Positions 27,983 through 37,713 of a DNA stretch of 64,000 nucleotides are shown here, one piece after another. The DNA is taken from assembly GCA_016187945.1 (NCBI GenBank), contig JACPIT010000005.1, positions 868,001-932,000 of the forward strand, read 5' to 3'. A program made the position numbers and the translations under genes. The notes below the pieces were generated by a model. That model made no database searches. It was not told the origin of the DNA and saw nothing but the letters and a program-made list of their open reading frames with translations. This DNA is from Opitutia bacterium (GTDB taxonomy: Bacteria > Verrucomicrobiota > Verrucomicrobiia > Opitutales > Opitutaceae). Numbering within the stretch: position 1 is the first letter of the stretch; each line of letters opens with the position of its first letter.

Positions 27983-28474
27983 TGTTGCGCGGATTCTGAA
28001 TCGAAACGCGGAAAACGTGGAGCAGCGTAGGCCTTTCGTCTGCCACGGGCTTCGTTGCGAGCGGGACGAGAGAGTCACGTTGCACCTTAAATTCCGCAGT
28101 TGAAACGCGGAGAGCGCGGACGACGCGGAGTGGAACGCAGGGAAATCCGGCCCCCGAAGGACTCACCTGCCGGGTGGAGGGCCGCGGGGCGGACGAGAGG
28201 GAGAGAGGGTCCGCGGCCTCGAAAAGGTCAGCGATGCTGTGGCGACCCCCCGCTGTGTTCGCTGCGACGTGAGCGGGCGCTTAAGCTGCATCCATCGCAC
28301 GCTCTCGTGAATCGTCGATTGGCTGTGCCGACGTTTCGCGGCGTAGCGCAGGTGAGCGCCGCTGCCCCCAGCGGCGCCTTTTAGCGTGCGCCTCCCTTTG
28401 ACGACGTTCGCGTCGTCGCCGGGAACGGCGACGACCACCTCGGAGTCGCTCGCGAAAATCGGGATGTATGCAGC
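27983..28474. other. Gene-free stretch with dispersed-repeat remnants
   Basis: I see no convincing gene in these 490 bases. Positions 28091-28190 are a roughly 100-base repeat also found at 37339-37437 (ATTCCGCAGT, GAAACGCGGAGAGCGCGGA, AATCCGGCCCCC, CTGCCGGGT and AGGGCCGCGG are shared). A partial copy of its start lies near 27995-28020. Confidence 0.6.
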
Positions 28475-36164: not shown

Positions 36165-36189
36165 GTTTGTAGTCTAATAGACTACAAAC
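36165..36189. promoter_or_regulatory. Operator-like palindrome, copy 1 (upstream of small HTH gene)
   Basis: This is a perfect 25-base palindrome with 12-base arms GTTTGTAGTCTA and TAGACTACAAAC around a single A. It is AT-rich in a very GC-rich setting and lies 68 bases upstream of copy 2. Confidence 0.85.
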
Positions 36190-36232
36190 TCCTCCGCGCC
36201 CGCCGAGCGAAAGCGCGGCTTGCCCGGGCAAA

Positions 36233-36255
36233 TTTGTAGTCTATTAGACTACAAA
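36233..36255. promoter_or_regulatory. Operator-like palindrome, copy 2 (one base before the HTH start codon)
   Basis: Arms TTTGTAGTCTA and TAGACTACAAA flank a single T. The ATG at 36257 follows after one base, so the site covers the place where a ribosome-binding site would be. Confidence 0.85.
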
Positions 36256-36256
36256 C

Positions 36257-36628
36257 ATGGCTACGTATCCCGTGCAGATTCCGGGAGCGATTGCGCTCTC
36301 GTTGTTCGACTTGGCGGATGCGACGTTGCGCGACGCGAAGCGCGCTTACCGGCACGCGCGCCGCCGGCGCATCGGCGCGACCCTGCGGCCCGGCGCGGGC
36401 ACGCCACTCTGGAACGAGTTGGTGCGCCAGGCGCTGCCGCTGCTGGCGAAGCGTGGCGCGAAAGTCCGGCTCGCCCGCCAGCTCGGCGTGTCGCGGCAAC
36501 GATTGCGGCACTGCTTGAATGCACAACACGCCTGCCTCGACGGTGAGCGCGCGCTGATGCTGCTGTGCTGGGTGGCGGCGCATCAACGCGGTCAGCCGCT
36601 GCCGCTGCAGGCCGAGCCGGATTTGTAG
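36257..36628 (+). CDS. Small HTH protein framed by palindromes (123 aa), function unknown
   Basis: The protein is very Arg/Ala/Leu-rich. It begins ATYPVQIPGAIALSLFDLAD and contains a helix-turn-helix-like segment of the lambda-repressor/XRE kind (AKVRLARQLGVSRQRLRHCL, residues about 68-87). Helical residues follow (GERALMLLCWVAAHQRGQ). The start codon comes one base after a palindrome and the TAG stop is part of another copy of the same palindrome. No Shine-Dalgarno is visible, so translation may be leaderless or start from within the palindrome's transcript. A self-binding repressor is the simplest reading. Exact framing of the gene by the repeats also fits a small mobile or multi-copy cassette. 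I do not recognise a named family. Confidence 0.7.
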   Translation: MATYPVQIPGAIALSLFDLADATLRDAKRAYRHARRRRIGATLRPGAGTPLWNELVRQALPLLAKRGAKVRLARQLGVSRQRLRHCLNAQHACLDGERALMLLCWVAAHQRGQPLPLQAEPDL

Positions 36629-36646
36629 TCTATTGGACTACAAATC
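36620..36646. promoter_or_regulatory. Operator-like palindrome, copy 3 (contains the HTH stop codon)
   Basis: Arms GATTTGTAGTC and GACTACAAATC surround TATTG. The TAG at 36626-36628 is the stop codon of the HTH gene. Nothing else gene-like is seen up to 36837. Confidence 0.85.
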
Positions 36647-37284: not shown

Positions 37285-37713
37285 GTCGGACTCGCGCCGT
37301 CGCCCGCGAATCGCGCGAACGCGCGCGAATGAACCTGAATTCCGCAGTCGAAACGCGGAGAGCGCGGAGGACGCGGAGCAGAACGCGGGGGAATCCGGCC
37401 CCCGGAGGATTCGCCTGCCGGGTGAAGGGCCGCGGAGCAGAATGGTCGGAGTTTCTCCTCTGTGCTCTCCGCGTCTTCCGCGTTTCAACGGCGTTTTTGG
37501 GATGAAAACCGTCGCTCTCGCCGCCGCCCGGGCGGTCGGCGCGCTCGATCGGACCTGCAGGCGAGATTGCGTCGCTGAACTCGCGACAATTCGCGCCGTT
37601 CGCGGGAGGTGTTCTGGATGAAGTTCGGCCCGGCGTCGCGCCGTTTTGCGCCACCTGAATTCAGGCGGTTTTGGTCGCTATCGCGTCGCGCGCGTCGGGC
37701 GTAGCTTACGCGC
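37285..37713. other. Gene-free stretch with a long inverted repeat (37347-37489)
   Basis: GTCGAAACGCGGAGAGCGCG is inverted at the far end as CTCTCCGCGTCTTCCGCGTT. Its first 100 bases (37339-37437) match 28091-28190. I see no gene here. Confidence 0.65.

Follow-up and report, generated by a model that had tools for sequence, protein, structure and literature searches.

A small gene framed by palindromes

The window, by which we mean the whole 64,000-nucleotide stretch of DNA analysed here (positions 868001-932000 of contig C9 in G000, the window's own genome), contains a 123-aa gene framed by three palindromes of 23 bp, of which the third has a single mismatch (Table 1). They have the form TTTGTAGTCTA-n-TAGACTACAAA with a one-base centre; a pattern with a three-base centre matched no palindromes. 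The coordinates confirm the layout described in the first-pass annotation, with the second palindrome one base from the ATG and the third over the TAG stop: only base 36256 separates palindrome 2 from the start codon, and the stop (36626-36628) falls inside palindrome 3.

Table 1. Features of the palindrome-framed gene, in window coordinates
Feature	Position	Strand	Remarks
Palindrome 1 (TTTGTAGTCTAATAGACTACAAA)	36166..36188	.	Outer member of the pair 5' of the gene
GC-rich spacer of the upstream pair, 44 bp	36189..36232	.	Palindrome centres 67 bp apart
Palindrome 2	36233..36255	.	Inverted at the centre with respect to palindrome 1; stops one base short of the ATG
Gene for a predicted 123-aa Cro/XRE-like DNA-binding protein	36257..36628	+	No confident family name in databases
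Predicted long N-terminal helix, residues 9-34	36281..36358	+	AlphaFold2 model
Family signature, residues 44-53 (RPGAGTPLWN)	36386..36415	+	Alignment
Predicted helix-turn-helix, residues 68-76 and 80-87	36458..36517	+	Model and covariation
Palindrome 3, one mismatch near the centre	36622..36644	.	Holds the TAG stop

The idea that the gene exactly fills the space between two repeats holds for the window gene but not as a universal rule of its family, in which such a fit is common. In a loose scan of 55 homologs an upstream palindrome was present in 51, with the start codon inside it or at most 2 nt away in 19 of the 51, and a downstream palindrome in 48, with the stop codon abutting or overlapping it in 12 of the 48. 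The lack of a Shine-Dalgarno sequence is borne out family-wide, an SD-like 4-mer at -15 to -5 being found in just two of the 55 homologs (the count covers homologs only). The central TATTAG of palindrome 2 could be the -10 box of a leaderless promoter, and a TAwTA centre used in this way would place the transcription start near the ATG; a consensus scan gave no sigma-70 promoter at the palindrome. Autoregulation of the gene through its own palindromes is plausible, and the copies at the gene probably control it as well. A reading of the palindromes as an RNA element was dropped, as eight loci had no Rfam match at gathering scores.

Elsewhere in the window, a GC-rich sequence, CTCCGCGTCTTCCGCGTTTCAA, lies at 37467-37488 within an inverted repeat near 37350-37490, and a second copy with three mismatches (0 expected) lies at 28001-28022; this is perhaps a second interspersed repeat family.

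A weakly recognisable Cro-like protein

An AlphaFold2 model built from an alignment of 33 members (mean pLDDT 81.7) has helices at residues 9-34, 50-62, 68-76, 80-87 and 96-110, of which 80-87 is the predicted recognition helix, and the N-terminal helix perhaps serves dimerisation. The motif TPLW or TPMW is present in 67 of 70 genes. Sequence matches to the Cro/XRE class were weak (XPH2, E 0.042; Pfl6 Cro, E 0.11), as were structural ones: Foldseek gave a best E of 0.5, with top rows that are mostly XRE-type HTH proteins and the NatRT toxin-antitoxin complex at rank 1, and the best hit in a viral library (E 0.045) was also an HTH protein. Together these matches, all of them weak, point to a member of the Cro/XRE class. 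None of the 33 members could be assigned confidently to a family in Pfam, NCBIfam or PHROGs. For the YdaS/Cro repressor family (PF15943) the window protein scores 14.3 bits, below the curated cut-off of 30, while 22 of the 33 members match it at E <= 0.05 (best 0.00015). Weak PHROGs matches were to transcriptional regulators, in 7 and 3 of the 33 members, and to phrog_296, a phage DNA transposition protein, in three (best E 0.0072). The Pfam matches of the 33 members include no Y1 transposase model, an HUH-like motif occurs in one of the 70 genes, and no nuclease or catalytic domain was matched in the HTH protein.

Several other identities were considered and rejected. PADLOC reported RmrA alone, in four of the 33 members (best E 0.00046), which we read as general HTH likeness and not as a link to defence. 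Phage or plasmid records offered no homolog, as the window protein had no tblastn match at E 0.01 in INPHARED phages or PLSDB plasmids and none of 18 pattern matches in IMG/VR was confirmed. The look of the palindromes suggested a BlaI/MecI operator, a candidate rejected because the window's own genome (95.69% complete) lacks a PF03965 gene; the control search found such genes in 7 of 14 known genomes.

Homologs are framed by palindromes of matching type

Of 252 genomes in the window's family (Opitutaceae, judged from named relatives), 130 have a homolog, with up to eight in one genome; homologs occur in 33 of the family's 49 genera and in 9 of 13 genomes of the window's genus. All counts given here are raw, ignoring kinship among genomes. 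A pattern-based scan of GTDB contigs yielded 34 relatives from 119 candidate stretches, all of them from Verrucomicrobia, Opitutia, Opitutae or genera thereof. When window-genus homologs were set beside Candidatus Didemnitutus loci, L081 looked the same as L064 and L079 the same as L060.

Loci were retrieved for 70 distinct genes, a subset of the 256 homolog matches tallied. With a looser centre and agreement of type required, palindromes of the same arm type lie on both sides of 57 genes, on one side of nine and on neither side of four, one of which (L040) is by eye framed by inverted TTGGGGCTAATAAGCAACAA. Under strict criteria (exact TAwTA centre, arm 9, at most two mismatches), applied to 60 distinct genes, the 55 with full flanks have palindromes on both sides in 36 cases, on one side in nine and on neither in ten, against a background of 7 palindromes in the 292,864 bases that make up the rest of these loci. 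The order palindrome-gene-palindrome, for which it had been asked whether it always holds, is the prevailing one, with one-sided and unframed exceptions. With the filters used, no gene other than the HTH gene is common at these loci: the HTH ORF occurs in 23 of 38 loci, the next family in four.

Three clear paralogs of the window gene exist in its own genome, each framed by a different repeat: the first by two copies of TTGTAACCTAnTAGGTTACAA on each side, the second by one copy of ATGGCGTATTACGCCAT on each side and the third by TTGGGGCTAATAAGCAACAA, inverted. These paralogs are 43-44% identical to the window gene over the match, so the gene is not amplified there and does not behave as the multicopy cassette that had been suggested.

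Palindrome arms covary with the recognition helix

The palindromes have a common TAwTA centre and arms that vary from gene to gene, and this variation in the arms tracks the recognition helix predicted for the Cro-like protein. For 53 proteins less than 80% identical to each other and with palindromes on both sides, we calculated the mutual information between each column of the protein and the bases of the half-site; it peaks at residues 79-86 (z 7.8-13.9) and at residue 69 (z 13.7). Residues 46, 53, 71, 92, 94 and 115 are also above z 6, the values for 46 and 53 resting on few sequences because both columns are almost invariant. The shuffles behind these z values ignore phylogeny, and the N-terminal columns of the same proteins provide a built-in control: residues 4-45 reach a z of at most 4.7. 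In terms of motifs, QDC pairs with GTAACG, HVC or QVC with GTAGTC, INAY or INAF with GTCAAC (INAF also with GTCACC), and GEYF with GTTCG.

Since the arms covary with the recognition helix in this manner, the palindrome of each gene is very probably the one that its protein binds. The first-pass proposal of a DNA-binding protein with its own sites over the start and end of its gene is supported by this covariation and by the framing of 57 of the 70 genes, with binding itself as a prediction.

Palindromes are dispersed through gene-bearing genomes

The window's own genome contains 20 window-type palindromes at up to three mismatches and none that match the reversed control pattern, so the copies are not there by chance. 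Seventeen of the 20 lie away from the gene, and twelve form six pairs with starts 47-69 bp apart. By crude ORF calls they sit both inside ORFs and in gaps of all three kinds (convergent, tandem, divergent), with in-frame copies in the methionyl-tRNA formyltransferase (fmt) ORF and in a 569-aa ORF; the pair at C16:19575 also seems, by eye, to lie in frame where a short ORF begins. The simple reading of a palindrome-gene-palindrome cassette thus fails on a test proposed along with it, because the palindrome occurs at many sites without the gene.

Across the family, the window type (at most one mismatch) was found in 11 of 252 genomes, ten of which have a homolog, G237 being the exception. The more general TTGT-type pattern, TTGTNNNNTAWTANNNNACAA, which misses types with other outer bases, gave 1,601 sites in 108 genomes, compared with 2 sites in the 252 genomes for its reversed control. 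Of these sites, 1,523 fall in the 130 gene-bearing genomes (86 have at least one, 44 have none) and 78 in the 122 homolog-free genomes, where they are spread over 22. Five single-homolog genomes have listed sites, and their type agrees with that of the gene in three: G015 (8 of 8 sites), G030 (all three of the listed sites, from 30) and G048 (20 sites within one mismatch of the gene's type; 22 TTGT-type sites in all). It disagrees in G017 (three of three sites of another type) and G027 (five of seven of another type, two mixed). In G049 the sites stretch along contig C1 (3.6 Mb) from 34 kb to 3.45 Mb, as counted on the contig and not from origin or terminus.

Two further observations concern individual genomes. 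G052 has 23 TTGT-type palindromes with no homolog detected; the gene may have been lost recently, have diverged, or fall in a gap of the assembly. In G003, the segments C1:519911-532462 and 753126-765678 have the same palindromes in the same order and spacing about 233 kb apart, a pattern that hints at duplication of some 12 kb at least.

The repeated unit is a pair of palindromes

The clearest case of a multicopy element comes from G121, where 15 near-identical doublets of 67-69 bp each lie on 13 contigs, two of them bracketing the homolog. Twelve of the 15 have a 27-nt spacer, mean spacer identity is 0.83, and the 300-bp flanks are unrelated, except for those of the two gene-bracketing neighbours, which overlap. 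A T precedes 14 of the 15 copies and a purine follows all 15. No consistent target-site duplication was found among them, the longest flanking direct repeat being 0-3 nt in 14 and 7 nt, off register, in one, and for this reason a TIR transposon or MITE was rejected for G121. A sixteenth doublet in this genome is of a different type. These copies support a spread of the elements as units in G121, and presumably they spread likewise elsewhere. Among seven loci chosen for having palindromes on both sides, direct repeats of 70-72 bp with 91.5-98.6% identity bracket the gene in three (L043, the G121 locus, L068 and L062), and in the remaining four the match is limited to the palindromes. The expectation of a multicopy unit ended by palindromes was therefore right as to its existence and wrong as to its content: the unit is palindrome-spacer-palindrome, not palindrome-gene-palindrome.

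In the retrieved loci we counted 95 distinct pairs, 68 with inverted centres, 26 not inverted and one unassigned. Their spacings cluster near 36, 45-48, 53-58, 64-68 and 77-78 bp. With 52 values of type plus spacing, none of 5,000 uniform draws gave a 10.5-bp period as strong, four of the 95 pairs being longer than the first null range; on the 28 spacing values alone p was 0.003-0.006. For 13 pairs with 54-bp spacing in G000 and G049, the palindromes are 0.91 alike and the spacers 0.40 (0.32 when shuffled). Near-perfect palindromes with drifting spacers would also be expected of binding sites that have been kept for long.

Orthologous places carry different types

In fmt, 7 of 12 orthologs from the genus hold a palindrome, or what remains of one, at the same codons, and these are of several types; five have none; an epimerase ORF has such an insert or remnant in 8 of 11 orthologs, with none in G053, G054 and G043. 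The insert has the type of an inspected homolog of the same genome in 9 of these 15 cases (fmt in G000, G047, G049 and G045; the epimerase in G000, G047, G049, G050 and G045), and in G050 the epimerase insert, TGGTAACC, has the same form as at the gene. The type match is not very demanding, because most of these genomes hold several types. The six unmatched inserts (fmt in G044, G046 and G054; the epimerase in G044, G046 and G052) are all imperfect and come from genomes that lack a homolog (G046, G052) or whose inspected homologs are all of other types, G044 and G054 each having one homolog outside this inspection. Perfection nevertheless does not separate the two groups, because several type-matched palindromes are imperfect too (fmt in G000; the epimerase in G047, G050 and G045).

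At the window locus itself, the presence or absence of the cassette at orthologous sites, raised in the first-pass annotation, gave a mixed picture. The cassette precedes a DUF5069 gene in G000 and G048, palindromes alone are present in G046 and G052, and in G053 a TonB receptor lies directly before DUF5069 without palindromes; in G050, G044, G047 and G051 the upstream stretch covered contains no palindrome. For site L032 of G000, the aligned place in G049 (L191) is free of palindromes. Elsewhere, these two genomes have different cassettes at one locus with alignable flanks on either side (82-88% nucleotide identity), and the G049 protein there is 62% identical to a G000 paralog elsewhere, versus 56% to the G000 protein in the same place. 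Replacement of the element or cassette at fixed places fits such cases better than slow point mutation, which is also possible.

We also note two ORFs of G000 with in-frame palindromes, an epimerase ORF (L173:2852-3976) and a neighbouring RNA methyltransferase-like ORF, named by eye (L173:5376-6851), both of which have palindromes at the aligned places in G049. Because the G049 site loci were chosen for holding palindromes, sites shared by these two genomes are over-represented.

A proposed two-part repeat system and alternative explanations

What emerges seems to be a kind of repeat system not described so far, more than just one odd gene. Our main reading, to which we give a probability of roughly 60%, is a two-part system that works much like REPIN-RAYT but is built on another protein. 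The first part would be a gene, one per specificity type in the closely inspected genomes, whose small Cro-like product would bind its own 21-25 bp TAwTA-centred palindrome, presumably as a dimer. The second would be the element, two palindromes that are mostly inverted and spaced onto one face of the helix, copies of which bracket the gene while others are scattered between genes and, in frame, within them. Since no nuclease domain was matched, any part that the protein has in spread would need a host activity or an unseen transposase, and it may direct host replication, repair or recombination, or such a transposase, to the element. The resident protein seems to set which sites persist and which give way to new copies, because orthologous inserts carry the arm type of a gene present in that genome where that type is known. 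Against such a system stand the facts that no transposition was seen, that the protein has no recognised catalytic domain and that no consistent target-site duplication was found. The 44 gene-bearing genomes devoid of TTGT-type sites, the 22 homolog-free genomes that have some, the disagreement of types in G017 and G027, the imperfect type-matched palindromes, the vacant place in G049 opposite L032 and the poorly conserved spacers in the window's genus also count against it. One may go further and imagine a self-bracketing, transposase-free gene that multiplies paired operators, overwrites older types and has radiated into dozens of specificities within one family, i.e. a genomic parasite or symbiont of a new kind, perhaps steering replication or repair to its operators; we put this forward tentatively, as a conjecture that falls short of being probable.

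The most serious alternative is an ordinary autoregulated Cro-like transcription factor, whose palindromes are operators and whose dispersed copies regulate neighbouring genes. The Cro-like model and its covariation with the palindrome, the start codons placed inside a palindrome or at most 2 nt from it (19 of the 51 homologs with one upstream), and the persistence of several sites at orthologous places between species would all be natural for a regulon. However, palindromes are about as frequent downstream of the gene as upstream (48 versus 51 of 55), the sites in the window's own genome follow no promoter pattern by the crude ORF calls, and the near-identical G121 copies of 67-69 bp have unrelated flanks. 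Up to eight homologs per genome, and four in the window's own genome each with its own repeat, also fit poorly, and we regard this explanation as unlikely.

A protein of chromosome structure or silencing, in which phased pairs of sites hold a nucleoprotein complex that organises DNA and spread is secondary, appears less likely still. MatP with matS and Noc with its sites are chromosome-organising systems of this kind, the former marked by sites confined to one chromosome region and by DNA bridging. The tens of sites that a genome carries both within genes and outside them, helical phasing of the pairs and palindromes that stay near-perfect while spacers drift would suit such a role, but the presence of the gene is patchy (130 genomes out of 252 in the family, 9 out of 13 in the genus), and several types per genome together with retyping at fixed places would be odd for it. 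Least credible, and in our opinion improbable, is that a classical RAYT (an HUH transposase) encoded elsewhere acts in trans to move the palindromes, which would then be REPs, with the HTH gene as a riding regulator: doublets without target duplications and in-frame inserts do resemble GTAG REPs, and phrog_296 matches weakly, but the bracketed gene is the HTH gene, the arms follow its protein, and the GTAG tag is absent from most types.

Bacterial repeat families are usually traced to a transposase. On the two-part reading, the repeat described here has a dedicated, coevolving protein and no transposase in sight, which leaves either small binding proteins that drive the spread or palindrome pairs that are kept for a function in or between genes. 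Whatever the mechanism of spread, nature has provided in this family a catalogue of Cro-like proteins, dozens in number and each beside its own 21-bp site, which should be useful for learning how recognition helices read DNA.

Comparison with known systems

Among the literature matches listed, in which subscription papers are thinly covered, none describes such a system in its title or the start of its abstract. Cro/XRE repressors share the predicted fold and mode of binding, the matches being weak, whereas here there are sites on both sides of the gene, tens more elsewhere and a duplicated, phased element. Rickettsia palindromic elements are likewise in-frame palindromic inserts in unrelated genes; the available portion of their description (PMC10969869) names no associated binding protein, whereas here a typed gene accompanies the palindromes. 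GTAG/CGTC REPs, according to PMC3733652, are palindrome dimers, of which the GTAG REPs are abundant and intragenic in Opitutus terrae, a member of the Opitutaceae. They form stem-loops that carry a tag of four bases at one end, in contrast to most types here, which are untagged: by sequence GTAG occurs in the window type and is absent from the GTAAC, GTCAC, GTCAA and GTTC types. Overlap with some GTAG/CGTC REP family is possible, the families having been set apart by description and not by consensus.

The nearest known kind is REPIN-RAYT, which is matched in layout and differs in its defining protein. In REPIN-RAYT systems (PMC3116915, PMC8049555), inverted doublets spread as units, the gene is flanked by its own repeat and is not itself amplified, and the repeats are commoner in genomes that hold the gene; TnpA-REP, moreover, is reported to coevolve with its REPs (PMC8266576). 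Correspondingly, 68 of the 95 pairs here are inverted and 15 near-identical doublets occur in G121, the gene is flanked by its cognate repeat on both sides in 57 of 70 cases, and 1,523 of the 1,601 TTGT-type sites lie in gene-bearing genomes. In contrast, the palindromes described here are near-perfect, AT-rich and TAwTA-centred, and where REPIN-RAYT has an HUH (Y1) transposase, the REP-associated tyrosine transposase, the present system has a Cro-like protein.
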